Assembly (NCBI GenBank): GCA_029204225.1
Contig: CM055101.1
Span: 45,630,180-45,694,179, forward strand
Reading direction: 5' to 3'
DNA length: 64,000 nt
DNA from: Diphasiastrum complanatum
Lineage: Eukaryota; Streptophyta; Lycopodiopsida; Lycopodiales; Lycopodiaceae
In this document: positions 2,904 through 22,777 of the stretch, one piece after another
How the letters are laid out: each line of letters opens with the position of its first letter
How positions within the stretch are numbered: position 1 is the stretch's first letter
The notes under the pieces: model-generated
What the model was told of the DNA's origin: nothing
Database searches by the model: none
What the model saw: the letters and a program-made list of their open reading frames with translations, nothing else
Made by a program: the position numbers and the translations under genes

Positions 2904-2908
2904 GGAAC
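2904..2908. repeat. 5-bp target-site duplication, left copy (GGAAC)
   Basis: GGAAC lies directly before TGTTACGAG at 2909 and again at 4089-4093, directly after the terminal TAACA. Removing the insert and one GGAAC restores the transposase sequence seen uninterrupted in copy C (GGCAACCCGCCTGAC there, GGAACCCGCCTGAC here). Five bases is the usual duplication size for LTR retrotransposons. Confidence 0.85.
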
Positions 2909-3147
2909 TGTTACGAGCTCGTAACCAGTGCCGAACCCTAGAGAACACAGATAGGTCAGATACCACAGTCAGGGTCGTGTCCAGCGTACACGACCAACAG
3001 GGCAAGACAGTGTGAGTAGTGTGCCCCAGCACGGTCCATAGCCATGGCGGGCCTAACACAGCCTAGGGACCCTGTCAGCAGGATAGGGCTCCCAGTTGGG
3101 TCCCGACGTGCAGTCGGCCACGTCAGTGACACGTGGCCGACACTTGG
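2909..3147 (+). repeat. LTR, 3'-truncated copy
   Basis: Matches the first 240 or so bases of the complete LTR at 3383. It stops after GGCAGTAG and switches directly to pol sequence. Confidence 0.85.
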
Positions 3148-3149
3148 CA

Positions 3150-3371
3150 GTAGGGGACAGTGTTCTAGTTCTCCCATTGGATCCCCAACAACCTCCACAT
3201 GAACCAGAGGAGATTCTTGATAGTAGAGAGACGCAGACTCGTCATACTCTATACCGAGAATATCTGGTTAAGTGGAATGATCAGCCTGTTGAGAATGCCA
3301 CTTGGGAAAGAGGCAGCGTCCTTCGCAAGATTTTTCCAGACTTTGTCTTAGAGGACCAAGATGGTTCTTAA
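3150..3371 (+). pseudogene. Chromodomain end of a Ty3/gypsy polyprotein
   Basis: The reading frame gives PEEILDSRETQTRHTLYREY followed by LVKWNDQPVENATWE, and ends at a stop at 3369-3371. The EYLVKW...ATWE pattern is the chromodomain found at the C-terminus of chromovirus integrases, where it is thought to guide integration to modified histones. Only this last piece of pol remains, and upstream the frame runs into LTR sequence. It lies just before a polypurine tract and LTR, the expected place for the end of pol. Confidence 0.85.
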
Positions 3372-3382
3372 GGGGGAGGGAG
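3370..3382 (+). other. Polypurine tract
   Basis: AAGGGGGAGGGAG directly precedes the LTR start at 3383. This is the normal position of the plus-strand primer. Confidence 0.75.
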
Positions 3383-3740
3383 TGTTACGAGCTCGTAACC
3401 AGTGTCAAACCCTAGAGAACACAGATAGGTCAGATACCACAGTCAGGGTCGTGTCCAGCGTACATGACCAACAGGGCAAGACAGTGTGAGTAGTGTGCCC
3501 CAGCACGGTCCATAGCCATGGCGGGCCTAACACAGCCTAGGGACCCTGTCAGCGAGATAGGGCTCCCAGTTGGGTCCCGACGTGCAGTCGGCCACGTCAG
3601 TGACACGTGGCCGACACTTGGCAGTAGCATGCTACCAGTCCTCACACTGGGCTAGGAGGGGCTTACTCTATATCAGGGAGTAGGCAAGGTTGGGTGGATC
3701 AGTTAGTGTTTGCCCTACTGTGGTATTAGGATCTATTACA
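3383..3740 (+). repeat. Complete LTR (358 bp)
   Basis: Begins TGTTACGAGCTCGTAAC and ends CTATTACA. The preceding polypurine tract and following primer binding site confirm both edges. Confidence 0.85.
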
Positions 3741-3741
3741 C

Positions 3742-3753
3742 TGGTATCAGAGC
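3742..3753 (+). other. Primer binding site for initiator tRNA-Met
   Basis: TGGTATCAGAGC lies one base after the LTR end. This is the usual plant retrotransposon site complementary to the 3' end of the initiator methionine tRNA. Here it lies in the loop between two inverted LTRs rather than before gag. Confidence 0.9.
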
Positions 3754-4088
3754 ACCACAGTAGGGCAAACACTAACTGATCCACCCAACCTTGCCTACTC
3801 CCTGATATAGAGTAAGCCCCTCCTAGCCCAGTGTGAGGACTGGTAGCATGCTACTGCCAAGTGTCGGCCACGTGTCACTGACGTGGCCGACTGCACGTCG
3901 GGACCCAACTGGGAGCCCTATCTCGCTGACAGTGTCCCTAGGCTGTGTGCCATGGCTATGGACCGTGCTGGGGCACACTACTCACACTGTCTTGCCCTAT
4001 TGGTCATGTACGCTGGACACGACCCTGACTGTGGTATCTGACCTATCTGTGTTCTCTAGGGTTCGGCACTAGTTACGAGCTCGTAACA
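3754..4088 (-). repeat. Inverted LTR copy
   Basis: Reverse complement of LTR positions 3383-3724, with a short deletion near 3950 and scattered substitutions. It ends at the palindromic terminus CTCGTAACA. Confidence 0.85.
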
Positions 4089-4612
4089 GGAACCCGCCTG
4101 ACAATGTCCACCTCGTCCCACAGATCGGCAAGGTTATGTCTCTTACTTCCAGCCGGTTTCTCCTTTATTGCTCTTATTGGCAAGTACCTTCCCAATGCAC
4201 CATCTCTGTAGAAAGGAATAGGGAAAGAAGGCAGAGATCTCTGTGGGTGCAATAGGAGTCGGAAGGCTTGAAAAAACCACAATAAAGGCCGAAATAGCAA
4301 TAGCAGGGGAGGACGCGATCAATGCAATGCGAAGACAGCTGGGAGGGCGCGGACAGTAGGGCGATGGGCATACAACAGAGAGGGCTCGGACAGCAGGGAG
4401 GGCGCGAACAATAGGGCGACGGGCAAGAAGAGAGATGAAGCGAGGGGGGGGGGATTAGGTTAAAAAAATATATAGTGATATATTAAATGCTAAAAAATAT
4501 TATATGTTAAAAAATAATATATATTGTGGAACCGCGAATCAGTATGGATCCGCGGTACCACACTGGATCCGCGATACCGGGATCGGCGGATCCTGGTACC
4601 GCTGGATCTATG

Positions 4613-4634
4613 ATATATATGTATATATATATAT
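4613..4634. repeat. (TA)n tract between elements A and B
   Basis: About 22 bp of alternating T and A with one G. It separates the CTATG end of A from the CATAG end of B. Confidence 0.85.
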
Positions 4635-4858
4635 CATAGTACCTCATGGTACCGCTAGTATGGTACCGCCGATGCCATATCAGTGGTATCGCCGGTACGG
4701 TACCGCCCTGGGATCCACGGTACCAGGGCGGTACCATTATATTTTTAATAAATTTTTTTTGCATATTAACTACCAAAAAAGGACAAAAAAATTAAAAAAA
4801 GGGGGTTCTGGGTGTAAAAAAAGAGGGTACAGTACATGATGCAGGGGACTGTTGCAGT

Positions 4859-5041
4859 GGCACATGGGCACTGCGAGTGAGCAGACCGAGGGGCCAATGG
4901 GAGACCAACACAGGGGGGTAGCATCACATGGGGGCAAGTACAGAGGCACATGGGCATTGTGGGTGAGCAGACCATGGGCCCAATGGGAGACCAACACAGG
5001 GGGGAGCATCACATGGGGGCAGGTACAGAGGCACATGGAGG
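4859..5041 (+). repeat. 85/86-bp subterminal tandem repeat, copy B
   Basis: Units begin GGCACATGG at 4859, 4945 and 5030 (periods 86 and 85 bp); the third is partial. The units are rich in CACATGGG and ACCAACACAGGGGGG. They lie between the element end and the accessory-gene promoter, as in C and D. Confidence 0.85.
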
Positions 5042-5258
5042 GATGATGGGGATCCACATGGCCGATCAGGCTGTGGGGATAAATAGGCACTCACAATGCC
5101 ATTGTGGTCAGCATTTTCAGAGGCTGTGAGAGAGCTAGTGATAGCCAGTGAGAGAGCAAGCGAGAGCCGGTGACACGCTGTGAGAGGCTGTTTGAGAGCC
5201 AGGGTGTTGTGAGAGGGTGTTCAAGGACCAGGGTGCTGTGAGGAGAAGGTCGATCGAG

Positions 5259-5430
5259 ATGGCAGACCGAAGCCCGAGGGCGAATCCAGGAGGAAGCTTG
5301 AGGAAGATATCCGAAGGCACAACGAGAGACATCGGAAGCAAGAGGCAGATATCCGAGAGATGCTGCGACAGACTCGACAGAGAAATCCGGAACTGGAGCC
5401 ACCCGCCCCCGCTGTGGATCCTGTCCCCAC
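5259..5430 (+). pseudogene. Truncated accessory-protein gene of copy B
   Basis: Corresponds to the first half of the 121-aa accessory ORF of copy C, starting at the matching ATG. It is frameshifted soon after the start and ends at the 1.5-kb deletion junction, where it runs into transposase exon 4 in antisense. No functional protein is expected. Confidence 0.8.
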
Positions 5431-8400
5431 GTGTGGCATGCTGGCAAGAGATGATGGGGGCGCCCTGACACTCGGCATCTGCTGGGCCTTTGAATCCAAT
5501 GTGGCAACCAAGTCGGCCAGCTGGGCATCCGAATACAAATGCTCTGGGCTCTGGGACTCATCCTGTGCACCAGCCTCTAAATCATCCTGTGCACCAACCT
5601 CTGAATCATCCTGTGCACCAACCCCTGAATCAACCCAAGCCTCATCCTGTGCCTCATCATGTGCACCCTGTAGACCCTGCATGGCCTCCCAATCTGTGCA
5701 ATGAAAGTCATCAGGTGCCTCCTCTGGTGTGCTGTCGTAGTAACGGCCATGACTCTGTGCTGCATGCATCCAAACATCTGCGGGACCGGCATATAAACCA
5801 CTCTGCCCTCTATCAAGAGCCTCCTCCATCATGTCGACATAGGTAGGTATGCCACTGCCCCCCCCTGTGTGCCCTGCCTATCTGCCGGTATAACAAGTGC
5901 CATGTGTCCCACCTCTGCCACGTGATGCACCTGTGACCCCTGCCCGTGGCTTGTGCCCTACACCTGTATAATCTGCCTCATCCCTCTCTGGTCTGGCAAA
6001 CACAACCCGAATGGGCTCATCCTCATCATGCTCATCCTATGACACTGGCTCATCTGCCTCATACAATGGGGGCTCTCTGTGCTCAAGCCCAAGCTCTCTC
6101 TCTCTCATCTCGGCAAGCTCCCTCTCTCTCTCTGCCATCAACTGTGTGCCCAGGTCATCTGCAGGCATGGGATGGGTGTTGTCCGTAGGCAAGTCAACCT
6201 GGCGCTCCAAATCTGATATCTTCGTCTGCAAGGTTTAAAATTTGCATGTCAGAGAGACAAATTTATCAAGTAATGAAACCAACATACCAGGAGTCAACCA
6301 ACATGCTATGAAAGATTAGCTTATCACCTACAATGTGCTCGTAATGGTCGGAAGTCTCCTGGCGAGACGTGCGTTGGTGCTACAGAACACCAACCGCTCC
6401 AACTGACTCACTGACAACCGGTTTTTTCTCCTCGTGTGAATGAGTGCCCATGTGCTCCAATTACGCTCACACACGGAGGCAGCACAGTCCTATGGTGCGT
6501 GCATTGAAATACTTCAGCACATTGTGGCAGAGGTGGAACTTCAACGAAACACAACAATGGAGGATAAAATGAGATGCATACTTGAGAAAGGACACGCAGT
6601 GCAAGACGCTGTATAGATGGGTATGTGCTACCGAACATGGTCCACCAGGTAATGGGTAGCTGCCTCCTCTCTGGATCCTGGGCAACCGGGTGGCCGAATG
6701 TGCTCATGCCGAAACGAAATGCAGCGAGCTCCTCCACGAGCCTGATAGCATCCAAACCCATGTGTGGACCCACTCTATGAATGTACTGAAGCCAATCGAA
6801 CTCGAGCTCCCTGTCTGCGATCTGTGTCGGAGAGAGGAAGAGGGGATGCAGTATGTGTGCAACGCTGTGGATACTCCTGTGGAAGTAGTTCCACCGCGTC
6901 TCCCAGATGAACTTCAGCTCTGTCATCCTGCAGGTGAGGGGCATGTGGTTTAGGGCATTACGAAAAAACTTAGCATTGACAGAAAAACAAACTAGCAAGT
7001 ACTGAAAAGATAAAGGTCAGTTACAACACTGTATCGCTTACCTCTCTGGCTGCAAGATGGGCAGCTGCAGGAACTGTCCAATCCGGTTCATGAGCTCATA
7101 CACCAGTCCAAGTGTCGACCCCTCGCTGTCAGCCATGCGGAGCACAATGTAGAGTGGTCGAAGCAGTCCTGACAATGTCTGTGCATCCCTCCAGAACTGG
7201 TCTCCCCTCACCGTGGAAGAAAAGTGCTCTCCATCCTTAGTGTGCGGAAACGTACTGGCACCCCAAAGATCACTGGCAACCATCTGTAGAAGCTGGGCCC
7301 TGCATCTGATCAAACGGTCGATGACCACCAAGTCGAATGCAAAGCGTGTGGGGGCTGGCTTACAGAGGTCCAGATGGCTGAACACCCAGAACATGGCAAG
7401 AACACGCCTCTTTCTGGTGACAAAAGTCACCAGGAAGAGGGCCTCCCGGACGATGGCTCTAACCCAGGGAAGTGCTCCAATGTCCCCCATCAGAAGGTCT
7501 ATGCCGTGGGCTACACAGGGGGTATGAACAATATGAGGGAACTCGGCCTCTAGCAGTACACCCATCTGAATGCAGTTCGTGGCATTGTCCGTCACCACCG
7601 TGACGACATGCTGTGGGCCTATGGCTAGGATGGAAGACCTGATGACATCAAACATGAACTCTGCAGATATGACTCTCCCCCCCCTGCTGCAATCCACTGC
7701 CCTCAAAAAACTGTGTGCCCATGCAGCTGGAGACTAGTATGTTGAGGATCGGCCTCCTCCTGACATCAGTCCTGCCATCGGACATGATGCTGCAACCGTA
7801 AGTGGCCCAGTGTCGACGTAGAGGCTCCATCTCTCTAGACAAGGACTCGACCCAATCCCTCAGCATCTGTGTGCGGACAACCTCTGAACTAGGGACTCTC
7901 CAGCTAGGGCTGACAGACTGTGCAAGGCGGGAGGCCCTTCTGAAGGGCTCAGAGTCGGTGGTGGCAAAGGGCAGGTTCAGCTCGTAAATTAGACTGGCCA
8001 CGGCCTGTGTGGCCTCTCTGTCCATGTGCGGCTGATGCGTGCCGCGAATGGTCTGTTGCACAAGGGCTCTCCCTGGTGGGCGACGGGTGGTGGACCTCCA
8101 GCACGGTGCACCAACCGTGACGGGAATGAACAATGACGCGACAGGCTGGGCACTGGTGGATGCATCGGCTGTAGACGTGGAATGGGGAGAGTGGGATGCA
8201 CTGGCAGGGATGGGTGCAGCAGCATAGGTGGGGTGCACTGGTGGAGGGGCAACATCTGGCATGGGGTACGAAAACTGCTGGCTGAGGAGGTCATCCGGAT
8301 GGGAAGGGAAGGAAGAAGGGATCTCTTCCACATCCTCGAAGGCCCGCCCAGTAGCATCCTGGGCCAGCTCGAGTGGCGGAGAGTCCATGAGAAAGTCGTA

Positions 8401-8923
8401 GACTGGTGGAGTGCGAGCAACAGTGGTTGGTTGTGGAACCGTAGTGGCAAGGCGGACGCGATGGGACGGGATCCACCGGAATCTGAGCAGATGGGGGTGC
8501 GTGAGGCAGAACTGTCTGAGGGGGATGAGGGGCAAAGGGACCGGAGGAGGATGCACTCCCTCTCCTCGTGCGTGCCAGCCAAGCAGGCAGTAACTCTGGG
8601 TCAGCCACATAAGGAGCGGTGCAAAATCGGAGAATGCCCTCCGAAATGGTGTTCTCCCCTGCCACGAGCCGCGGCCCGTAGGTGCCCAGTAGTCGCTGCC
8701 TGTTGGGGACGGTCATGCTGCCACAAGGGGCAGCATTCAAGGTGGCACCATTTTTGGCGCGTGCACCGAGCAGATGGCCTTTAAGGCGAGTGAGGGATGC
8801 AGCAAACTCGACGAGACAATATCGGCAGCGCACGATCTTCTGACCGGTCTTGTTGGCCTTGTCGGCAACCCGCCTGACAATGTCTACCTCGTCCCACAGA
8901 CCGGAAAGGTCGGATTGCACCAT
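5431..8923 (-). pseudogene. Transposase pseudogene of copy B
   Basis: Exon 1 (about 7042-8923) still shows the start MVQSDLSGLWDEVD, the BED finger CRYC...RLKGHL, the SDG(R)TD core, VTDNATNC and CVAHGIDL. It is split into three frames by frameshifts near 7700 and 8400. Exon 2 is 6582-6927 and exon 3 is 6328-6489, the latter ending with TAG in place of the CAG of copy C. Exon 4 (5431-6225) keeps only its N-terminal half because of the deletion, so the AT-hook region is gone. This could be a source of small RNAs but not of an active transposase. Confidence 0.85.
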
Positions 8924-9140
8924 TGCAGATGAAATGAGGGATGGATTGCTGGAAAAAAAACAGCAGGGTTCACTGTTGGAGAGACGCTGAAAATGGGCGA
9001 AGGCAGGGCGAAGCAAGTCAGATGCAAGGCAGGGCAATGCGTGGGCGAAGGGCGATGCAAGGAATCGAAGGCAGGCAGGCGGAAACAGTAGCGATGGCAG
9101 GGCGGAGGAGGGCGCAAAAATATTTCTGATGAAATGCGAG

Positions 9141-9285
9141 GGGGGCGGGTAGTTTAGGTTAAAAAAAATATTAAATAATATATTATATTGTGGTACCGCG
9201 GTACCATGTTAGGGGGGCGGGTAGTTTAGGTTAAAAAAAATATTAAATAATATATTATATTGTGGTACCGCGGTACCAACATGGT
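9141..9285. repeat. 72-bp tandem duplication at the end of copy B
   Basis: The block GGGGGGCGGGTAGTTTAGG, then an AT-rich stretch, then GTGGTACCGCGGTACC occurs twice in a row with a 72-bp offset. It is present once in C and D. Confidence 0.85.
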
Positions 9286-9406
9286 ACCGCGGTACCAACA
9301 TGGTACCGCAGTACCAGTATGGTCCCGCGGTACCAGTACGGTCCCGCGGTACCAGTACGGTCCAGCGGTACCGGGATCCGCGGTACCCAATACCGCGGGT
9401 ACCATG

Positions 9407-9411
9407 ATACA

Positions 9412-9451
<40 letters not shown>

Positions 9452-9466
9452 CACATATATATATAT
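9407..9466. repeat. (TA)n tract between elements B and C
   Basis: About 60 bp of TA repeats with a few C interruptions. It lies exactly between CCATG of B and CATAG of C. Confidence 0.9.
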
Positions 9467-9569
9467 CATAGTTCCTCGTGGTACCGCTGGTATGGTACCG
9501 CCGGTACCATATCAGTGGTACCGCCGGTACGGTACCGCCCTGGGATCCGCGGTACCAGGGCGGTACCAT
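9467..9569. repeat. Left palindrome-rich terminus of copy C
   Basis: Starts CATAGTTCCTCGTGGTACCG and contains a dense array of GGTACC and GGATCC hexamers, many in the context CCGCGGTACC or GGTACCGCC. It is followed by an A/T homopolymer-rich stretch. The same array ends every copy in the chain, so it probably holds transposase binding sites. Confidence 0.75.
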
Positions 9570-9717
9570 TTTTAATATTTTTTTTTATTTTTTAATATAT
9601 TTTTAATAATTTTTTTTTGCATATTAACTACCAAAAAAGGACAAAAAAAAGATATAAAAGGGGGTTCTGGGTGTAAAAAAAGAGGGTACAGTACATGATG
9701 CAGGGGACTGTTGCAGT

Positions 9718-9900
9718 GGCACATGGGCACTGCGAGTGAGCAGACCGAGGGGCCAATGGGAGACCAACACAGGGGGGTAGCATCACATGGGGGCAAGTAC
9801 AGAGGCACATGGGCATTGTGGGTGAGCAGACCATGGGCCCAATGGGAGACCAACACAGGGGGGAGCATCACATGGGGGCGGGTACGGAGGCACATGGAGG
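9718..9900 (+). repeat. 85/86-bp subterminal tandem repeat, copy C
   Basis: Units start GGCACATGG at 9718, 9804 and 9889; the third is partial. They lie upstream of the accessory-gene TATA box and are conserved in B and D. They may be enhancer or transposase-binding repeats, like the subterminal repeats of Ac/Ds. Confidence 0.85.
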
Positions 9901-9936
9901 GATGATGGGGATCCACATGGCTGATCAGGCTGTGGG

Positions 9937-9947
9937 GATAAATAGGC
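9937..9947 (+). promoter_or_regulatory. TATA box of the accessory gene (copy C)
   Basis: GATAAATAGGC lies about 180 bp before the ATG at 10118 and directly after the subterminal repeats. It is conserved in B and in D (reverse strand, 21491-21500). Confidence 0.6.
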
Positions 9948-10117
9948 ACTCACAATGCCATTGTGGTCGGCATTTTCAGAGGCTGTGAGAGGGCTAGTGA
10001 TAGACAGTGAGAGAGCAAGCGAGAGCCGGTGACAGGCTGTGAGAGGCTGTTTGAGAGCCAGGGTGCTGTGAGAGGGTGTTCAAGGATCAGGGTGCTGTGA
10101 GGAGAAGGTCGATCGAG

Positions 10118-10483
10118 ATGGCTGAGCGAATACCACCGAAGCCCGAGGGCGAAGCCAGGAGAAAGCTTGAGGAAGATATCCGAAGGCACAACGAGAGGCA
10201 TCGGAAGCAAGAGGCAGATATCCGAGAGATGCTGCGACAGACTCGACAGAGAAATCCGGAACCGGAGCCACCCGCCCCCGCTGTGGATCCTGTCCCCGCT
10301 GTCGAGCTGGATCTGGATGAGCAGATCGGAATGAATTTCACACGACGGCAGCTCATCATGGTCAGGGAAAGGGCGGCCAGACGTCGGGCTAACCAGGAGG
10401 CAGCTCGGGCTAACCGGGAGGCAGAGCAAGAGCGACAAAACAATGCACCAGACGAGGGCGAGGAGTCGGTGGAGGATCAGTGA
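10118..10483 (+). CDS. Accessory protein of the hAT element (121 aa), copy C
   Basis: Unrecognised family. The product is highly charged: an Arg/Glu-rich helix at residues 10-46, a Pro-rich hinge (PEPEPPAPAVDPV, about 47-59), a second basic helix with FTRRQLIMVRERAARRRANQ at 74-93, and an acidic tail ending EEESVEDQ-like. This suggests a coiled-coil or protein/DNA-binding adaptor; there is no signal peptide or membrane segment. I chose the MAER start because copy D has a stop just upstream of it in the same frame and both copies then give exactly 121 aa. It converges on the transposase gene with 523 bp between the stop codons. C and D differ at only four residues. A role in transposition or in countering host silencing is inference only, by analogy with two-gene Mutator-type elements. 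Confidence 0.75.
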   Translation: MAERIPPKPEGEARRKLEEDIRRHNERHRKQEADIREMLRQTRQRNPEPEPPAPAVDPVPAVELDLDEQIGMNFTRRQLIMVRERAARRRANQEAARANREAEQERQNNAPDEGEESVEDQ

Positions 10484-11006
10484 GGGATGTTTAGAATAGA
10501 TGAGGTCCACCCGTATGTGGCGGACTGTTGCTATGTAGTTTTCGGCAGTTTATGGTGCAGCAAATAACTAGATGGCTGCTTAAAAAAATGACAGTATATG
10601 TGATGTTATCCTGATACAACGGTTGAATATATACATAGTTGTTTTTTGTGCAACGCGAGCCTGGTCATGTAAGATGCAATGTTTGTAATTTTTTTAAATG
10701 CAGATGTATTACATGTGTTTATTCAATGTCGTTTGGGGTGTAGGGGTGATTGCTGTGCTCATGATGTAGGTGCATCTATGTGAAGCTAGCATTCACTTCA
10801 AACGAAATTAAATGAAAATAGGATTCACACACGCACATAGAATTCTTCAACATAAAATAAAGCATCACATGTACAGAGCGACATACGCACAATGTGCAGC
10901 AAATAATGTAGGCCAAACACTGTATATAATGTGAAAAATCATCTGAGTACAATGGTAGACCGACTGCTAGAGACAAACTACTGAAACTAAAACAATAGAG
11001 CCACAA
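10484..11006. other. Intergenic region between convergent genes, overlapping poly(A) signals
   Basis: No ORF. A plus-strand AATAAA at 10856-10861 could end the accessory transcript. A minus-strand AATAAA (10718-10723 on the plus strand, as TTTATT) could end the transposase transcript. If both are used, the two mRNAs overlap by about 140 bp or more at their 3' ends. Confidence 0.5.
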
Positions 11007-14000
11007 TCAATGCTCTGGCTCTGACTCAGACGAATGCTCTGGAGACAACTCAGGGCCCCGAGCTGACTCTCGCAGCCGATATCTCTGCCTGTCTGGAACT
11101 GGCATGGGCTGTGTATCCGAGGGGGAAGACTCGTCATCCTCATCCTCCCAATCAGCCTCCGCATCAGCCCCCAAGCAGGCCAAACCAACAACACCTGCTC
11201 CAACTGGCTGTGATACTGCACCTCTACCTGTACCTGGAGCCCTGCGTGGTCGTCCTCTCCTCCCTGGCAGTTTCTGTGCCTTGCCTTTCTTGTTCGGTGC
11301 ACCCTTGGGCCTGCCTGGTCTCTTGCGGACAAGAGGAGCTGTCAATGCCTCGTCACCCCCATGCAAATCACCTGGCTGGCTAGGCTGGGCCCAAGCTGAG
11401 GCCGGCTGGGATAGGGAAGCAAAAGAGGGAACTCCCTGTGCAACTGAGCGAGGAGGATGAGCTCGTGGAGTGTGTGCCCGTGGGGCTGCTGCAGGTGGAG
11501 GAACTGGCTGTGCAGGAGGCGAGTACAGTGGCGATATGTACTGAAAGGGGCGCTGTGGTGGCCGGTACTGGTACATCCTGGGTGCTGCCAAAGGAGGAGG
11601 ATGTGACGTGGGTGCTGCCACTGGAGGAGACACTGTGGATGTGGGCGCTGCAAGAGAAAACCTGGGCACAGATGGTGGCCTGCCATGGAGACCTGGTGCT
11701 GCAGAAGTGGACGGCGATGGAGGGGATGCAGGCCTAAATGGCATCGTTGGCACTGGAGGAGCTGTGCGACGCACATACACCCTCTGAGGAGCTGGAGGAA
11801 CTGTAGGCACCTCATGCGGCTGCTCTGGCTGGGACTCTGTGTGTGGCATGCTGGCAAGAGATGATGGGGGCGCCCTGACACTCGGCATCTGCTGGGCCTC
11901 TGAATCCAATGTGGCAACCAAGTCGGCCAGCTGGGCATCCGAATACAAATGCTCTGGGCTCTGGGACTCATCCTGTGCACCAGCCTCTAAATCATCCTGT
12001 GCACCGACCTCTGAATCATCCTGTGCACCAACCCCTGAATCAACCCAAGCCTCATCCCGTGCCTCATCATGTGCACCCTGTAGACCTTGCATGGCCTCCC
12101 AATCTGTGCAATGAAAGTCATCAGGTGCCTCCTCTGGTGTGCTGTCGTAGTAACGGCCATGACTCTGTGCTGCATGCATCCAAACATCTGCGGGACCAGC
12201 ATCTAAACCACTCTGCCCTCTATCAAGAGCCTCCTCCATCATGTCGACATAGGTAGGTATGCCACTGCCCCCCCCTGTGTGCCCTGCCTGTCTGCCGGTA
12301 TAACCTGTGCCATGTGTCCCACCTCTGCCACGTGATGCACCTGTGACCCCTGCCCGTGGCGTGTGCCCTGCACCTGTATAATCTGCCTCATCCCTCTCTG
12401 GTCTGGCAAACACAACCCGAATGGGCTCATCCTCATCATGCTCATCCTCTGACACTGGCTCATCTGCCTCATACAATGGGGGCTCTCTGTGCTCAAGCCC
12501 AAGCTCTCTCTCTCTCATCTCGGCAAGCTCCCTCTCTCTCTCTGCCATCAACTGTGTGCCCAGGTCATCTGCAGGCATGGGATGGGTGCTGTCCGTAGGC
12601 AAGTCAACCTGGCGCTCCAAATCAGATATCTTCGTCTGCAAGGTTTAAAATTTGCATGTCAGAGAGACAACTTTTTCAAGAAATGAAATCAACATACCAG
12701 GAGTCAACCAACATGCTATGAAAGATTAGCTTATCACCTGCAATGCGCTCGTAATGGTCGGAAGCCTCCTGGCGAGACGTGCGTTGGTGCTACAGAACAC
12801 CAACCGCTCCAACTGACTCACTGACAACCGGTTTCTTCTCCTCGTGTGAATCAGTGCCCATGTGCTCCAATTACGCTCACACACAGAGGCAGCACAGTCC
12901 TGTGGTGCGTGCATTGAAATACTTCAGCACATTGTGGCAAAGGTGAAACTTCAACGAAACACAAAAAATGGAGGATAAAATGAGATGCATACCTGAGAAA
13001 GGACACGCAGTGCAAGACGCTGTATAGATGGGTATGTGCTACCGAACATGGTCCACCAGGTAATGGGTAGCTGCCTCCTCTCTGGATCCTGGGCAGCCGG
13101 GTGGCCGAATGTGCCCATGCCGAAACGAAATGCAGCGAGCTCCTCCATGAGCCTGATAGGATCCAAACCTATGTGTGGACCCACCCTGTGAATGTACTGA
13201 AGCCAATCGGCCTCGAGCTCCCTGTCTGCGATCTGTGTCGGAGAGAGGAAGAGGGGATGCAGCATGTGTGCAACGCTATGGATACTCCTGTGGAAGTAGT
13301 TCCATCGCGTCTCCCATATGAACTTCAGCTCTGTCATCCTGCAGGTGAGGGGCATGTGGTTTAGGGCATTACGAAAAAGCTTAACATTGACAGAAAAACA
13401 AACTAGCAAGTACTGAAAAGATAAAGGTCAATTGCAACACTGTACCGCTTACCTCTCTGGCTGCAAGATGGGCAGCTGCAGGAACTGTCCAATCCGGTCC
13501 ATGAGCTCATACACCAGTCCAAGTGTCGACCCCTCGCTGTCAGCCATGCGGAGCACAATGTAGAGTGGTCGAAGCAGTCCTGACAATGTCTGTGCATCCC
13601 TCCAGAACTGGTCTCCCCTCACCGTGGAAGAAAAGTGCTCCCCATCCTCAGTGTGCGGAAATGTACTGGCACCCCAAAGATCACTGGCAACCATCTGTAG
13701 AAGCTGGGCCCTGCACCTGATCAAACGGTCGATGACCACCAAGTCGAATGCAAAGCGCGTGGGGGCTGGCTTACGGAGGTCCAGATGGCTAAACACCCGA
13801 AACATGGCAAGAACACGCCTCTTTCTGGTGACAAAAGTCACCAGGAAGAGGGCCTCCCGGACGATGGCTCTAACCCAGGGAAGTGCTCCAATGTCCCCCA
13901 TCAAAAGGTCTATGCCGTGGGCTGCACAGGGGGTATGAACAATATGAGGGAACTCGGCCTCTAGCAGTACACCCATCTGAATGCAGTTCGTGGCATTGTC

Positions 14001-15326
14001 CGTCACCACCGTGACGACATGCTGTGGGCCTATGGCTAGGATGGAAGACCTGATGACATCAAACATGAACTCTGCAGATATGACTCTCCCCCCCCTGCTG
14101 CAATCCACTGCCCTCAAAAACTGTGTGCCCATGCAGCTGGAGACCAGTATGTTGAGGATCGGCCTCCTCCTGACATCAGTCCAGCCATCGGACATGATGC
14201 TGCAACCGTAAGTGGCCCAGTGCCGACGCAGAGGCTCCATCTCTCTAGACAAGGACTCGACCCTATCCCTCAGCATGTGTGTGCGGACAACCTCTGAACT
14301 AGGGACTCTCCAGCTAGGGCTGACAGACTGTGCAAGGCGGAAGGCCCTTCTGAAGGGCTCAGAGTCGGTGATGGCAAAGGGCAGGTTCAGCTCGTAAACC
14401 AGACTGGCCACGGCCTGTGTGGCCTCTCTGTCCATGTGCGGCTGATGCGCGCCGCGAATGGTCTGCTGCACGAGGGCTCTCCCTGGTGGACGACGGGTGG
14501 TGGACCTCCAGCACGGTGCACCAACCGTGACGGGAATGGACGATGACGCGACAGGCTGGGCGCTGGTGGATGCATCGGCTGTAGACGTGGAATGGGGAGA
14601 GTGGGATGCACTGGCAGGGATGGGTGCAGCAGCATAGGTGGGGTGCACTGGTGGAGGGGCAACATCTGGCATGGGGTACGAAAACTGCTGGCTGAGGAGG
14701 TCATCCGGATGGGAAGGGAAGGAAGAAGGGATCTCTTCCACATCCTCGAAGGCCCGCCCAGTACCATCCTGGGCCTGCTCGGGTGGCGGAGAGTCCATGA
14801 GAAAGTCGTAGACTGGTGGAGTGCGAGCAACGGTGGGTGGTGGTGGAACCGCAGTGGCAACTGTCGGACGCGATGGGACGGGATCCACCGGAATCTGAGC
14901 AGATGGGGGTGCATGAGGCAGAGCTGTCTGAGGGGCAAAGGGACCAGAGGAGGATGCACTCCCTCTCCTCGTGCGTGCCAGCCAAGCAGGCAGCAACTCT
15001 GGGTTAGTCACATAAGGAGCGGTGCAAAATCGGAGAACGCCCTCCGAAATGGTGTTCTCCCCTGCCACGAGCCGCGGCCCGTAGGTGTCCAATAGTCGCT
15101 GCCTGTCGGGGACGGTCATGCTGCCACAAGGGGCAGCATTCAAGGTGGCACCATTTTTGGCGCGTGCACCGAGCAGATGGCCTTTAAGGCGAGTGAGGGA
15201 TGCAGCAAACTCGACGAGACAGTATCGGCAGCGCACGATCTTCTGACCGGTCTTGTTGGCCTTGTCGGCAACCCGCCTGACAATGTCTACCTCGTCCCAC
15301 AGACCGGAAAGGTCGGATTGCACCAT
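11007..15326 (-). CDS. hAT transposase with AT-hook C-terminal tail, four exons, intact (copy C)
   Basis: Predicted exons: 15326-13453, 13338-12993, 12899-12738 and 12635-11007, all with GT/AG borders and matching phases, giving 1,336 aa. The start MVQSDLSGLW is conserved in D. Residues 33-67 form a BED finger (C33, C36, H50, C67). Residues 100-290 are Pro/Ser-rich. The DUF659/RNase H-like core follows with SDGWTD (D380), VTDNATNC (D443) and CAAHGIDL (C467/H470). Exon 3 carries the hAT dimerisation motif SVCERNWSTWALIHT, with E748 as candidate third catalytic residue. Exon 4 adds a Pro-rich and acidic tail with a GAQDDSEV-type repeat and two AT-hooks (RKRPGRPKG and GRRGRPRR, about 1230-1260). 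Ordinary plant hAT transposases are 600-800 aa, so the tail is exceptional. The intron 1 donor contains an in-frame TAA, so retention yields a 625-aa protein. Confidence 0.8.
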
Positions 15327-15610
15327 TGCGATGGAGAAAACTAAGGACAAAACGCTGGAAAAAAAACAGCAGGGTACACTATGTGAGAGACGCTGAAAAT
15401 GGGCGAAGGCAGGTTCTTGCAAATCAGATGCAAGGCAGGGCGGTCTGTGGGCGAAGGGCGACGCAAATCAGACGCAAGGCAAGGAAGACAGGGCAGCAAA
15501 ACCAGTAGCGAAGGCAGGGCAACGATGGCTGGAAAAAAATTGGGAGAGAAGAAGCGAGGGGGGCGGGTAGATTAGGTTTAAAAAAATTTCAAAAAATATT
15601 AAATATTAAT
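15327..15610 (-). promoter_or_regulatory. 5' flank of the transposase gene, copy C
   Basis: GC-rich purine-biased leader upstream of the ATG, then an A/T-rich stretch leading into the palindrome-rich terminus. It presumably holds the transposase promoter, but I see no clear TATA box. The matching region of D is 15860-16130. Confidence 0.35.
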
Positions 15611-15625
15611 TATATTAATATATTA

Positions 15626-15710
15626 TGGTACCGCGGTACCATCATGGTACCGCGGTACCAGTACGGTCCCGCGGTACCGGGATCCGCGGTACCCAGTACC
15701 GCGGGACCTA

Positions 15711-15712
<2 letters not shown>
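15626..15712. repeat. Right palindrome-rich terminus of copy C
   Basis: An array of GGTACC and GGATCC units ending GCGGGACCTATG, immediately followed by (TA)n. Read inwards it starts CATAGGTCCCGC and is an imperfect inverted match to the left end. Confidence 0.75.
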
Positions 15713-15765
<53 letters not shown>

Positions 15766-15773
15766 GTACCATG

Positions 15774-15826
<53 letters not shown>

Positions 15827-15829
15827 TAT
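15713..15829. repeat. (TA)n tract between elements C and D, with a 16-bp remnant
   Basis: About 117 bp of TA repeats. In the middle (about 15761-15776) is TATAGGTACCATGATA, which combines a D-like left end (TATAGGTACC) with a B-like right end (GGTACCATGATA) sharing one GGTACC. It looks like a fully deleted element. Confidence 0.8.
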
Positions 15830-16130
15830 TATAGGTCCCGGTACCACAATATAATAATATATTTATTATTTAATATTTTTTTAGTTTTTTTTTTACCTAA
15901 ACCTACCCGCCCCCCTCGCATTTCCTCTGAAATTTTTTTGTGCCCTCTCCGCCCTGCCATCGCTGCTGGTTTTTCTTGCCTGCCTTTGATTCCTTGCGTC
16001 GCCCATCGCCCACGCAACGCCCTGCCTTGCATCTGATTTCCTTTGCCCCGCATTCGCCCATTTTCAGCGTCTCTCCAACAGTGAACCCTGCTGTTTTTTT
16101 TCCAGCAATCCATCCCTCATTTCATCTGCA

Positions 16131-19100
16131 ATGGTGCAATCCGACCTTTCCGGTCTGTGGGACGAGGTAGACATTGTCAGGCGGGTTGCCGACAAGGCCA
16201 ACAAGACCGGTCAGAAGATCGTGCGCTGCCGATACTGTCTCGTCGAGTTTGCTGCATCCCTCACTCGCCTTAAAGGCCATCTGCTCGGTGCACGCGCCAA
16301 AAATGGTGCCACCTTGAATGCTGCCCCTTGTGGCAGCATGACCGTCCCCGACAGGCAGCGACTACTGGACACCTACGGGCCGCGGCTCGTGGCAGGGGAG
16401 AACACCATTTCGGAGGGCGTTCTCCGATTTTGCACCGCTCCTTATGTGACTAGCCCAGAGTTGCTGCCTGCTTGGCTGGCACGCACGAGGAGAGGGAGTG
16501 CATCCTCCTCCGGTCCCTTTGCCCCTCAGACAGTTCTGCCTCATGCACCCCGATCTGCTCAGATTTCGGTGGATCCCGTCCCATCGCGTCCGACAGTTGC
16601 CACTGCGGTTCCACCACCACCCACTGTTGCTCGCACTCCACCAGTCTACGACTTTCTCATGGACTCTCCGCCACCCGAGCAGGCCCAGGATGGTACTGGG
16701 CGGGCCTTTGAGGATGTGGAAGAGATCCCTTCTTCCTTCCCTTCCCATCCGGATGACCTCCTCAGCCATCAGTTTTCGTACCCCATGCCAGATGTTGCCC
16801 CTCCACCAGTGCACCCCACCTATGCTGCTGCACCCATCCCTGCCAGTGCATCCCACTCTCCCCATTCCACGTCTATAGCCGATGCATCCACCAGCGCCCA
16901 GCCTGTCGCGTCATCGTCCATTCCCGTCACGGTTGGTTCACCGTGCTGGAGGTCCACCACCCGTCGTCCACCAGGGAGAGCCCTCGTGCAGCAGACCATT
17001 CGCGGCGCGCATCAGCCGCACATGGACAGAGAGGCCACACAGGCCGTGGCCAGTCTGGTTTACGAGCTGAACCTGCCCTTTGCCATCACCGACTCTGAGC
17101 CCTTCAGAAGGGCCTTCCGCCTTGCACAGTCTGTCAGCCCTAGCTGGAGAGTCCCTAGTTCAGAGGTTGTCCGCACACACATGCTAAGGGATAGGGTCGA
17201 GTCCTTGTCTAGAGAGCCTCTGCGTCGGCACTGGGCCACTTACGGTTGCAGCATCATGTCCGATGGCTGGACTGATGTCAGGAGGAGGCCGATCCTCAAC
17301 ATACTGGTCTCGAGCTGCATGGGCACACAGTTTTTGAGGGCAGTGGATTGCGGCAGGGGGGGGAGAGTCATATCTGCAGAGTTCATGTTTGATGTCATCA
17401 GGTCTTCCATCCTAGCCATAGGCCCACAGCATGTCGTCACGGTGGTGACGGACAATGCCACGAACTGCATTCAGATGGGTGTACTGCTAGAGGCCGAGTT
17501 CCCTCACATTGTTCATACCCCCTATGCCGCGCACGGCATAGACCTTCTGATGGGGGACATAGGTGCACTTCCCTCGGTTAGAGCCATCGTCCATGAGGCC
17601 CTCTTCCTGGTGACAAAAGTCACCAGGAAAAGGCGTGTTCTTGCCATGTTCCGGGTGTTCAGCCATCCGGACCTCTGTAAGCCAGCCCCCACACGCTTTG
17701 CATTCGACTTGGTGGTCATCGACCGTCTGATCAGATGTAGGGCGCAGCTTCTACAGATGGTTGCCAGTGATCTTTTGTGTGCCAGTACATTTCAGCACAC
17801 TGAGGATGGGGAGCACTTTTCTTCCACGGTGAGGGGAGACCAATTCTGGAGGGATGCACAAACATTGTCAGGACTGCTTCGACCACTATACATTGTGCTC
17901 CGCATGGCTGACAGCGAGGGGTCGACACTTGGACTGGTGTATGAGCTCATGGACCGGATTGGACAGTTCCTGCAGCTACCCATCTTGCAGCCAGAGAGGT
18001 AAGCGGTACAGTGTTGCAATTGACCTTTATCTTTTTAGTACTTGCTAGTTTGTTTTTCTGTCAGTGTTAAGCTTTTTCGTAATGCCCTAAACCACATGCC
18101 CCTCACCTGCAGGATGACAGAGCTGAAGTTCATATGGGAGACGCGGTGGAACTACTTCCACAGGAGTATCCACAGCGTTGCACACATGCTGCATCCCCTC
18201 TTCCTCTCTCCGACACAGATCGCAGACAGAGAGCTTGAGGCCGATTGGCTTCAGTACATTCACAGGGTGGGTCCACACATAGGTTTGGATCCTATCAGGC
18301 TCATGGAGGAGCTCGCTGCATTTCGTTTCGGCATGGGCACATTCGGCCACCCGGCTGCCCTGGACCCAGAGAGGAGGCAGCTACCCATTACCTGGTGGAC
18401 CATGTTCGGTAGCACATACCCATCTATACAGCGTCTTGCACTGCGTGTCCTTTCTCAGGTATGCATCTCATTTTATCCTCCATTTTTTGTGTTTCGTTGA
18501 AGTTTCACCTCTGCCACAATGTGCTGAAGTATTTCAAAGCACGCACCTGTGCTGCCTCCGTGTGTGAGCGTAATTGGAGCACATGGGCACTAATTCACAC
18601 GAGGAGAAGGAACCGCTTGTCAGTGAGTCAGTTGGAGCGGTTGGTGTTCTGTAGCACCAACGCACGTCTCGCCAGGAGGCTTCCGACCATTACGAGCGCA
18701 TTGCAGGTGATAAGCTAACCTTTCATAGCATGTTGGTTGACTCCTGGTATGCTGGTTTCATTTCTTGATAGAGTTGTTTCTCTGACATGCCAATTTTAAA
18801 CCTTGCAAACGAAGATATCCGATTTGGAGCGCCAGGTTGACTTGCCTACGGACAACACCCATCCCATGCCTGCAGATGACCTGGGCACACAATTGATGGC
18901 ATAGAGAGAGAGGGAGCTTGCCGAGATGAGAGAGAGAGAGAGAGCTTGGGCTTGAGCACAGAGAGCCCCCATTGTATGAGGCAGATGAGCTAGTGTCAGA
19001 GGATGAGCATGATGAGGATGAGCCCATTCAGGTTGTGTTTGCCAGACCAGAGAGGGATGAGGCAGATTATACAGGTGCAGGGCACACGCCACGGGCAGGG

Positions 19101-20441
19101 GTCACAGGTGCATCACGTGGCAGAGGTGGGACACATGGCACATGTTATACTGGCAGACAGGCAGGGCACACAGGGGGGGGCAGTGGCATACCTACCTATG
19201 TCGACATGATGGAGGAGGCTCTTGATAGAGGGCAGAGTGGTTTAGATGCCGGTCCCGCAGATGTTTGGATGCGTGCAGCACAGAGTCATGGCCGTTACTA
19301 CGACAACACACCAGAGGAGGCACCTGATGACTTTCATTGCACAGATTGGGAGGCCATGCAGGGTCTACAGGGTGCACATGATGAGGCACAGGATGAGGCT
19401 TGGGTTGATTCAGGGGTTGGTGCACAGGATGATTCAGAGGTTGGTGCACAGGATGATTTAGAGGCTGGTGCACAGGATGAGTCCCAGAGCCCAGAGCATT
19501 TGTATTCGGATGCCCAGCTGGCCGACTTGGTTGCCATATTGGATTCAGAGGCCCAGCAGATGCCGAGTGTCAAGGCGCCCCCATCATCTCTTGCCAGCAT
19601 GCCACACACAGAGTCCCAGCCAGAGCAGCCGCATGAGGTGCCTACAGTTCCTCCAGCTCCTCAGAGGGTGTATGTGCGTCGCACAGCTCCTCCAGTGCCA
19701 CCGATGCCATTTAGGCCTGCAGCCCCTCCATCGCCGTCCACTTCTGCAGCACCAGGTCTCCATGGCTGGCCACCATCTGTGCCCAGGTTTTCTCTTGCAG
19801 CACCCACATCCACAGTGGCTCCTCCAGTGGCAGCACCCACGTCACATCCTCCTCCTTTGGCAGCACCCAGGATGTACCTGTACCGGCCACCACAGCGCCC
19901 CTTTCAGTACATATCGCCACTGTACTCGCCTCCTGCACAGCCAGTTCCTCCACCTGCAGCAGCCCCACGGGCACACACTCCACGAGCTCATCCTCCTCGC
20001 TCAGATGCACAGGGAGTTCCCTCTTTTGCTTCCCTATCCCAGCCGGCCTCATCTTGGGCCCAGCCTAGCCAGCCAGGTGATTTGCATGGGGGTGACGAGG
20101 CATTGACAGCTCCTCTTGTCCGCAAGAGACCAGGTAGGCCCAAGGGTGCACCGAACAAGAAAGGCAAGGCACAGAAACTGCCAGGGAGGAGAGGACGACC
20201 ACGCAGGGCTCTAGGTACAGGTAGAGGTGCAGTATCACAGCCAGTTGGAGCAGGTGTTGTTGGTTTGGCCTGCTTGGGGGCTGATGCGGAGGCTGATTGG
20301 GAGGATGAGGATGACGAGTCTTCCCCCTCGGATACACAGCCCATGCCAGTTCCAGACAGGCAGAGATATCGGCTGCGAGAGTCAGCTCGGGGCCCTGAGT
20401 TGTCTCCAAAGCATTCGTCTGAGTCAGAGCCAGAGCATTGA
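16131..20441 (+). pseudogene. Transposase gene of copy D, defective in exons 3-4
   Basis: Exon 1 (16131-17998) and exon 2 (18113-18458) are open and match copy C, including the BED finger, SDGWTD, VTDNATNC and AAHGIDL. Exon 3 (about 18545-18706) keeps TCAASVCERNWS-type dimerisation residues, but a short deletion removed the CACAG acceptor used in C. An in-frame alternative AG exists at 18528-18529. The exon 4 acceptor has also changed (TTGCAG to TTGCAA). Exon 4 has an early stop (GCATAG near 18900) and a frameshift before the 489-aa frame 18972-20441, which still encodes the Pro-rich tail and both AT-hooks. At most a truncated transposase can be made. Residues around LPSVRAIV...STFQHTEDG resemble copy A rather than C. 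Confidence 0.8.
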
Positions 20442-20964
20442 TTGTGGCTCTGTTGTTTTAGTTTCAGTAGTTTGTCTCTAGCAGACGGTCTACCATTGTA
20501 CTCAGATGATTTTTCACATTATATACAGTGTTTGGCCTACATTATTTGCTGCACATTGTGCATATGTCGCTCTGTACATGTGATGCTTTATTTTATGTTG
20601 AAGAATTCTATGTGCGTGTCTGAATCCTATTTTCATTTAATTTCGTTTGAAGTGAATGCTAGCTTCACATATATGCACCTACATCATGAGCACAGCAATC
20701 ACCCCTACACCCCAAACGACATTTCATAAACACATGTAATACATCTGCATTTAAAAAAATTACAGACATTGCATCTTACATGACCAGGCTCGCGTTGCAC
20801 AAAAAACAACTATGTATATATTCAACCGTTGTATCAGGATAACATCACATATACTGTCATTTTTTTAAGCAGCCATCTAGTTATTTGCTTCAGCATAAAC
20901 TGCCGAAAACTACATAGCAACAGTCCGCCACATACGGGTGGACCTCATCTATTCTAAACATCCC
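20442..20964. other. Intergenic region between convergent genes of copy D
   Basis: Mirror of 10484-11006 with no ORF. The AATAAA of the transposase strand is changed to CATAAA here, while the accessory-strand signal (TTTATT at about 20588-20593) is kept. Confidence 0.5.
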
Positions 20965-21330
20965 TCACTGATCCTCCACTGACTCCTCGCCCTCGTCTGG
21001 TGCATTGTTTTGTCGCTCTTGCTCTGCCTCCCGGTTATCTCGAGCTGCCTCCTGGTTAGCCCGACGTCTGGCCGCCCTTTCCCTGACCATGATGAGCTGC
21101 CGTCGTGTGAAATTCATTCCGATCTGCTCATCCAGATCCAGCTCGACAGCGGTGACAGGATCCACAGCGGGGGCGGGTGGCTCCGGTTCCGGATTTCTCT
21201 GTCGAGTCTGTCGCAGCATCTCTCGGATATCTGCCTCTTGCTTCCGATGCCTCTCGTTGTGCCTTCGGATATCTTCCTCAAGCTTCCTCCTGGCTTCGCC
21301 CTCGGCCTTCGATGGTATGCGCTCTGCCAT
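20965..21330 (-). CDS. Accessory protein of the hAT element (121 aa), copy D
   Basis: Same length and frame as the accessory protein of copy C, with four substitutions: two in the N-terminal IPPKPEG stretch (IPSKAEG here), one Pro to Thr in the hinge, and one Ala to Asp in the second helix. It stays open although the neighbouring transposase is broken. The frame upstream of MAER contains a TAG, which fixes the start. Function unknown; a charged helical adaptor or DNA-binding protein is possible. It could still act in trans on other copies. Confidence 0.7.
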   Translation of the reverse strand: MAERIPSKAEGEARRKLEEDIRRHNERHRKQEADIREMLRQTRQRNPEPEPPAPAVDPVTAVELDLDEQIGMNFTRRQLIMVRERAARRRANQEAARDNREAEQERQNNAPDEGEESVEDQ

Positions 21331-21490
21331 CTCGATCGACCTTCTTCTCACAGCACCCTAGTCCTTGAACACCCTCTCACAGCACCCTGTCTCTCACAGC
21401 CTATCACCGGCTCTCGCTTGCTCTCTCACTGTCTATCACTAGCTCTCTCACAGCCTCTGAAAATGCCGACCACAATGGCATTGTGAGTGC

Positions 21491-21500
21491 CTATTTATCC
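21491..21500 (-). promoter_or_regulatory. TATA box of the accessory gene (copy D)
   Basis: Reverse complement reads GGATAAATAG, identical in context to the copy C TATA box and about 160 bp before the start codon at 21330. Confidence 0.55.
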
Positions 21501-21540
21501 CCACAGCCTGATCGGCCATGTGGATCCCCATCATCCATCC

Positions 21541-21725
21541 ATGTGCCTCTGTACCTGCCCCCATGTCATGTTCCCCCCCTGTGTTGGTCCCCCATTGGCC
21601 CCATGGTCTGCTCACCCACAGTGCCCATGTGCCTCTGTACCTGCCCCCATGTGATGCTCCCCCCCTGTGTTGGTCTCCCATTGGCCCCATGGTCTGCTCA
21701 CCCACAGTGCCCATGTGCCACTGCA
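21541..21725 (-). repeat. 86-bp subterminal tandem repeat, copy D
   Basis: Units marked by ATGTGCC at 21541, 21627 and 21713 (period 86 bp). This is the reverse complement of the repeats in B and C. Confidence 0.85.
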
Positions 21726-21966
21726 CCAGTCCCCTGCACCATGTACTGTACCCTCTTTTTTTACACCCAGTACACCTTTTTTTTCCATTTTTTGTCCTTT
21801 TTTGGTAAGTAATAGGCAAAAAAAAATTATTGAATATATTAAAAAGTAAAAAAAATATTAAAAATGGTACCGCCCTGGTACTGCGGATCCCAGGGCGGTA
21901 CCGTACCGGCGGTACCACTGATATGGTACCGGCGGTACCATACCAGCGGTACCAGAGGGTACTATG

Positions 21967-21981
21967 ATATATATATAATAT
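21967..21981. repeat. (TA)n tract between elements D and E
   Basis: Short alternating T/A run between CTATG of D and CATAG of E. Confidence 0.8.
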
Positions 21982-22086
21982 CATAGTGGCACGTGGTGCC
22001 GCCCGAAAATTCGCGGTACCAAGGCGGCACCATTTTTTTATTTTTTTATTTTTTTTTTAAAAAAAATTATTTAAAAAAAAAATTAT

Positions 22087-22653
22087 TGGGCAATATGGGT
22101 ATCAGCTTGAAGATCTTGACGAGAGCAGTGCATTTATGCAGGCTGCCGGTGCTTTTAGCTACAAAATTTGTTAGACAACTAAACAATGCACCTCTCAGTT
22201 TAGTAGTCACTAGTTAATCGTGAGCTCAGATCTGTAAGGCCCCCGTTATGAGGAGAAGCCATTACTGAGCACGGTTGTTAGTATAGGGTCTATTGTGAGA
22301 CCATGATGGTTATGAGATGGCTAGATTACAGTTTCTATATAGCAGCAAGTCTTGGGGGGTTCAGGGGGCGTTAGCCCCCCGAGAAACGGGGGGTCCGGGG
22401 GGCTACGGGACGGTAGCCCCCCGGCTGGGGGTTTGGGGGGCAGAGCCCCCCAACGGCGGGGTCCGGGGGCCATTAGAGGTCCCGACGGTACGACCTCTTC
22501 ATGATTTGGCCTTCCGACTCCCTTAGTGAAAACACACTTTTTGGTGTTTTGCATCCCCTTGGTCCTTTGGTTGTTCGCTCTGGTCAGAACCGGCAACCTG
22601 CATAAATGCACTGCTCTCGTCGACAGCTTCAAGCTGATACCCATATTGCCCAC
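22087..22653. repeat. Internal inverted repeat of element E (arms about 65 bp)
   Basis: GGGCAATATGGGTATCAGCT at about 22087 is repeated in reverse complement near 22653. Both arms continue through GACGAGAGCAGTGCATTTAT. The arms enclose about 430 bp. This may be a second foldback element nested in E. Confidence 0.8.
22352..22470. repeat. G-run/C-run hairpin block
   Basis: At least three self-complementary units, such as GGGGGCGTTAGCCCCC and GGGGGGCAGAGCCCCCC, are separated by GGGGTCCGGGG-type runs. They could form hairpins or G-quadruplexes. No coding signal. Confidence 0.7.
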
Positions 22654-22777
22654 TTGATTTTATTTTTTATTTTTTTTTAAATTAAAAAAAATAAAAAAAA
22701 TATTATATATTATGGTACCGCGGATCAGTATGGATCCGCGGTACCGGGATCCGCGGATCCTAGTACCGCTGGATCTA

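Follow-up and report, generated by a model that had tools for sequence, protein, structure and literature searches.

We analysed a stretch of 64,000 nucleotides of Diphasiastrum complanatum (Lycopodiopsida; contig CM055101.1, positions 45,630,180 to 45,694,179, assembly GCA_029204225.1), hereafter called the window, and the 30 kb upstream of it. Reading of this sequence revealed a chain of at least six transposons of the hAT superfamily (Z and A to E) and a 13-bp relic, covering about 30 kb, in which successive members are separated by (TA)n microsatellites; Z, together with the start of A, precedes the window (Table 1). An initial annotation, made from the letters of the window alone, had described five hAT-type elements with only TA tracts (22, 60, 117 and 15 bp) between them. 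The four tracts were recovered with exactly these lengths, but the count was too low and the tract between C and D also holds the relic. The element boundaries against TA, described there as CATAG or CTATG or a one-base variant, all read so. In order, the eight are CTATG and CATAG on the two sides of the tract between A and B, CCATG and CATAG (B and C), CTATG and TATAG (C and D), and CTATG and CATAG (D and E), the variants being CCATG and TATAG. We consider it very probable that the chain consists of stacked cut-and-paste hAT transposons which select TA microsatellites for insertion.

Exact alternating TA runs of at least 12 bp occurred seven times in the window, all within the first three inter-element tracts, and the longest such run in the tract between D and E measured 11 bp. 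The relic looks like two element tips fused at a shared GGTACC. Upstream of the window, Z was 99.62% identical to C over 2,893 bp and 99.95% over 1,938 bp and lacked an internal part present in C (a large internal deletion); a 40-bp TA tract separates it from A, and on its outer side a 45-bp TA tract adjoins an A-rich stretch. A contains extra repeated segments, one of them in three copies (2903-3153, 3377-3627 and, inverted, 3851-4089; window 2903-4089), which are probably later insertions. B carries a perfect 72-bp tandem duplication of a subterminal block with a GGTACCGCGGTACC palindrome (window 9139-9278). The exon 4 frame of D is broken close to its start. E has no long frame in the open-reading-frame list of the window, and its outer end lacks the final TG and has no TA tract alongside.

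Table 1. Features of the chain, in window coordinates (negative numbers lie upstream of the window).
Feature	Position	Strand or orientation	Description
Element Z	-6994..-2166	inverted relative to C	in the sequence upstream of the window
Element A	-2125..4612 (6,738 bp); window part 1..4612	(-)	divergent subfamily
TA tract A/B	4613..4634		22 bp
Element B	4635..9406	(-)	4,772 bp; hAT copy with internal deletion; right tip CCATG
TA tract B/C	9407..9466		60 bp, interrupted
Element C	9467..15712	(-)	6,246 bp; transposase gene open
Short open frame of C	10055..10483	(+), opposite to transposase	142 aa; near right end of C
Exon 4 of C	11007..12635	(-)	predicted; proline-rich tail with RKRPGRPKG and GRRGRPRR
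Exon 3 of C	12738..12899	(-)	predicted; CERNWSTW, remainder of dimerisation region
Exon 2 of C	12993..13338	(-)	predicted; start of hAT dimerisation region
Exon 1 of C	13453..15326	(-)	predicted; DUF659, BED-like zinc finger by eye
TA tract C/D	15713..15829		117 bp, relic within
Relic TATAGGTACCATG	15761..15773		13 bp, in C/D tract
Element D	15830..21966	(+), opposite to C	about 6.1 kb; left tip TATAG
TA tract D/E	21967..21981		15 bp
Element E	21982..22777		about 800 bp; A-like ends

The four predicted exons of C, with GT-AG borders, give a protein of 1,336 aa without internal stop, and the transposase appears intact. Pfam recovered in this predicted spliced protein DUF659 (137 bits, 4.8e-40) and Dimer_Tnp_hAT (34 bits for a cut-off of 21.4, 2.5e-8), in agreement with the hAT type first assigned to the chain; taken by itself, the open frame surrounding exon 2 reached 18.5 bits for the latter domain, under the cut-off. 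A MULE domain was not reported by Pfam for the predicted transposase. The BED-like C2H2 pattern, the CERNWSTW block and the AT-hook-like motifs were recognised by eye. Protein searches found four homologues of the N-terminal part, three of the tail and one of the short open frame. Two predicted D. complanatum proteins match element open frames (one at 83% over 52% of the query, the other at 87% over 78%), matches that compare element copies and are no measure of species distance.

We searched the 1.74-Gb assembly with patterns of the element ends, using reversed-sequence controls. The right-end pattern gave 1,724 matches (885 + 839) when up to 2 mismatches were allowed, and the left subterminal pattern 527 + 537, with none in either control. 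The octamer ATATATAT lay directly outside the right end in 1,252 matches (635 + 617) and the other phase, TATATATA, in 13 (5 + 8), none of them exact (both controls 0), a phase ratio of about 96 to 1. The first search pattern, CATAGGGTACC, had been dropped, with 1,760 matches for 1,722 in the reversed control and eight loci that turned out to be other repeats without TA.

Flanks were read at 95 right and 55 left ends on two contigs (C1 and C2), among the matches listed (100 per end); all are exact pattern matches, which biases this sample to young copies. A TA flank, defined as 16 bp in which 9 or more of the 15 steps alternate, was present at 79 of the 95 right and 41 of the 55 left ends, thus at 120 of 150 ends among the matches listed, against 59 of 81,912 positions in nearby and control DNA (some of these loci overlap). 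The flanks of TA-flanked ends terminated in AT (115) or AC (5) and never in TA. The short terminal inverted repeat CATAG/CTATG was found at 143 of the 150 ends; since the right-end pattern contains CATAG, the free test is provided by the left ends (48 of 55). Fifteen of 31 opposed-end pairs measured 6,229-6,255 bp. By text match, at least 32 of the 120 ends with a TA flank have another element on the far side of the tract, a lower bound since text matching misses visible neighbours. Most copies thus lie in (TA)n and many in arrays. The insertion preference for TA microsatellites proposed in the initial annotation was in this way borne out by a tabulation of end flanks on the two contigs, in which the majority were TA.

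Insertion might instead be random, with only the copies in TA tracts surviving selection or excision. The minority of copies outside TA, including a young one (L032), would agree with this explanation, but a phase bias of about 96 to 1 is not expected from survival alone, and near-identical young copies (C, Z, L015, L023 and L041) are already in TA; we regard it as quite improbable.

The target site duplications were informative on the mode of insertion. Identical 8-bp flanks were present at 27 of 30 elements. In the 15 informative pairs, defined as those with flanks other than pure ATATATAT on both sides, 12 matched at 8 bp and none at 6, 7 or 9-12 bp, with three matches at 4 bp and one at 5 bp; shuffled pairing gave a mean of 1.1 and a maximum of 7 in 10,000. 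Three copies outside TA, of 3,550, 6,231 (L032, 98.1% identical to C) and 2,358 bp, are bordered by the exact 8-bp duplications CCTCCAAC, GTCTAAAT and GTGTGGAC, respectively. Interrupted TA tracts likewise showed exact 8-bp duplications (ATATAGAT, ATATGTAT, ATATATAC, ATATACAT, ATACATAC and ATGTATAT). Non-TA copies end exactly at CATAG/CTATG, and in interrupted tracts the duplication measures exactly 8 bp, which indicates that the TA tract is the target and that the element excludes it; the alternative first envisaged, with TA as a part of the element's own ends, is thus contradicted. The 8-bp duplications also point to a stagger of the hAT type and exclude the Mutator type. Membership in the Mutator-like SaTar group was accordingly rejected, as none of the 15 informative pairs matched at 9, 10 or 11 bp and the protein has hAT domains instead.

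A third possibility is that TA-filled circular intermediates recombine into genomic TA tracts, as in the SaTar model (Valdes Franco et al., 2018). This model was put forward for Mutator-like SaTar elements, whose array architecture is alike (PMC5907723). However, exact 8-bp duplications occur within the tracts, where they include non-TA bases, and also at non-TA sites; they agree with strand transfer at a constant stagger and do not fit homologous recombination, and we find this model very hard to retain.

C and Z were each most similar to copies on another contig, not to each other or to chain members, and thus represent separate insertions. Growth of the chain by separate insertions, as the initial annotation had favoured, is therefore supported over its alternative of an array made by duplication. 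If a single element with TA ends had been duplicated, locally or in tandem, this would fit the head-to-tail layout and the 99.6-99.95% identity of Z and C where aligned. Yet the elements do not all point the same way, C and Z are set apart by a large internal deletion and have A and B between them, both are closer to copies on another contig, and A diverges by about 33% from the other copies in the compared end; such a duplication has next to no probability in our view. Elsewhere, on contig C1, L016 and L031 are 98.8% identical over 3 kb that take in both flank and element, which indicates that a larger element-bearing block was duplicated.

Repeat X (GGACGCG-rich, with ends ...CCGCTTCCTTAG and CATGAGGGTCCGGGCC...) is another family found with TA microsatellites, its units, about 200-340 bp long, being linked by TA tracts (L039:670-1490, L014, L015 and L016). 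We counted 19 distinct X-to-TA junctions in the fetched loci: 5 lead to the next X, 13 to a CATAG tip and 1 to something else, the filled junctions being over-represented since the loci were chosen for holding an element. One of the 13 (L056) spans a poor TA tract, and a further empty X-TA-X junction is visible at L014, below the stricter match.

These junctions bear on the explanation that the tract is made after insertion, an element entering a short ATATATAT site and slippage expanding both 8-bp copies, according to a TAFT-type model described in maize by the guayule and rice paper (PMC5907723). It would account for the locking of the phase to one register and for some insertions in AT-rich spots of siblings with long surrounding tracts. 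On the other hand, empty X-TA-X junctions hold about 14-55 bp of TA, some of it interrupted, without any insert; in interrupted tracts the 8-bp duplications are exact and have not expanded, with longer TA next to them; and several elements lie within the TA tract that links one X unit to another. We thus consider expansion after insertion unlikely. Copies at C2:32777412-32783656, L033 and L034 appear in AT-rich subterminal spots of siblings with long TA tracts around them, suggesting that short AT sites may also be used and then expand.

Under targeting by the hAT transposase, the enzyme would join the CATAG tips to a cut staggered by 8 bp. Its preferred site would be approximately RTWYRWAY, offered by an (AT)n tract every 2 bp in the phase ATATATAT, and the tract would regrow by slippage. 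Because insertion leaves TA on both sides, the tract stays a target, and the order of insertion could be one in which later copies landed beside earlier ones. The consensus was derived from 18 distinct 8-mers beside CATAG tips failing the TA test; both strands were read, so that it is symmetric by construction, some of the 8-mers are partly TA, and the other end was checked for some of them. T2 and A7 (T and A at positions 2 and 7 of the duplication) were each present in 25 of 36 (both strands), or in 18 of 27 and 22 of 27, respectively, as read; Hermes, too, is reported to favour T2 and A7 (PMC8721813). The dimerisation domain, the 8-bp duplication, T2/A7 and the short inverted repeats, all found here, place the elements in the hAT superfamily. 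ATATATAT satisfies every position of the consensus and TATATATA fails. In background sequence (76,066 bp), 6 of 103 consensus sites were in a TA-like context. The 8-bp consensus alone thus fails to predict about 80% of insertions in TA tracts and a second determinant is needed, for which the candidates are an AT-hook-like tail of the transposase (favoured), TA flexibility and open chromatin.

An AT-hook is a GRP core flanked by basic residues that binds the minor groove of AT-rich DNA. Beyond the dimerisation domain, the transposase of C has a proline-rich tail of about 560 aa; two AT-hook-like motifs lie close to the end of this tail. Five tails were aligned, from C, D, a D. complanatum protein and two remote homologues (37-38% identity). 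Both motifs fell within the best conserved stretch, preceded by PSQPG.LHG.DE, and the first was present in all five. The divergent A also retains both with conservative changes, followed shortly downstream by a stop. In a single comparison, the DUF659/hAT protein P0003 had no such tail. The tail is a candidate for giving the TA-tract preference beyond the 8-bp consensus. It is possible, although we would put it at slightly less than an even chance, that these elements form a hAT lineage with a built-in targeting module, in which the AT-hook tail would tether the transposase to TA microsatellites and the 8-bp consensus would fix the phase, turning a cut-and-paste element into one that is self-stacking and site-directed.

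Several observations weigh against targeting or against the role of the tail. Thirty of the 150 ends failed the TA test (2 of them left matches that are not true tips), and L032 is a young copy outside TA; non-TA singletons with clear 8-bp duplications, which the initial annotation had named as a refutation, thus exist but are a minority, and targeting is a strong preference and no rule. The reading of ends was limited to exact matches, and the background sample of the consensus test was small. Pure ATATATAT flanks, as on both sides of Z, A, C and D, are uninformative since a duplication cannot show in them, and the flanks of B (ATATATAT and ATACATAT) and E (TATAATAT and ACCGTTAG) show no exact duplication. 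Three informative pairs were misses (C1 74011196-74011878, C2 21221420-21224154 and C2 36445089-36451321), and L022 and its opposite end, outside the 30-element set, had no duplication. The nearest copy to B in the compared set was the chain member Z (2.8%), followed by L023 (3.0%). The empty TA tracts seen are those of paralogous X junctions, none of them orthologous. Finally, Pfam gave no AT_hook and no BED match on the predicted transposase, and the second GRP motif was present in four of the five tails, being absent from the remote tail P0006.

TA stacking is known for Mutator-like elements; its occurrence in hAT elements, phase-locked and with a candidate targeting module, is new. The SaTar arrays of guayule and rice (PMC5907723) share with the chain the end-to-end joining, mostly by (TA)n microsatellite, the mixture of families in one array, the minority of copies with target duplications and some multi-kilobase copies of autonomous type. 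They differ in being Mutator-like, with duplications of 9-10 bp instead of 8 bp and mostly non-autonomous units of 0.4-1.9 kb; SaTar units were also reported never to interrupt each other, whereas here some copies appear inside AT-rich spots of siblings. The Ac-mMITEs of pineapple (Lin et al., 2021, PMC8449440) show the same TA preference and form clusters by adjacent insertion (46.1% of full-length copies), but they are short MITEs assigned to Mutator, with duplications of 9/10 bp and, as reported in that paper, no autonomous partner found. Similarly, MuTAnT of Medicago truncatula (Stawujak et al., 2015, PMC4486113) is a TA-microsatellite family with a putative autonomous copy and a few non-TA copies that reveal the duplication, but is Mutator-like, with 9-nt duplications and 218 copies, 90% of them of 200-300 bp. 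Micron of rice and TAFT of maize are also reported to prefer (TA)n (PMC5907723, PMC4486113, PMC8449440), and a carrot study assigned such elements to Mutator and called TA-microsatellite targeting unclear (PMC8227079). Among hAT elements, hATm-3 is named in the Hydra hATx-6 paper (Riggs et al., 2021, PMC8721813) with TATATATA as an example of an 8-bp duplication, printed in the other phase from ours, in a figure legend that describes no arrays or microsatellite targeting. Among the papers listed by literature searches on hAT with TA microsatellites or repeats, on AT-hooks with hAT transposases and on AT-hooks with target site selection, judged by title apart from those cited and with most subscription papers outside reach, none was devoted to hAT arrays or stacking in TA tracts.

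The exact 8-bp duplications in interrupted tracts and the fixed phase point to the transposase itself as the targeting agent, a reading that the conserved motif block, located in one intact-looking protein, makes directly testable. TA stacking would then have arisen in a second superfamily, and these elements may offer a natural model for safe-harbour targeting by a cut-and-paste transposase.

As for the short open frame of C, it is also present in D and truncated in B; its one homologue is a predicted D. complanatum protein, and Pfam gave no match for it. Further along the window, tandem repeats of the TGTGCGAGTCATTTTT type occupy positions 56776-57375.

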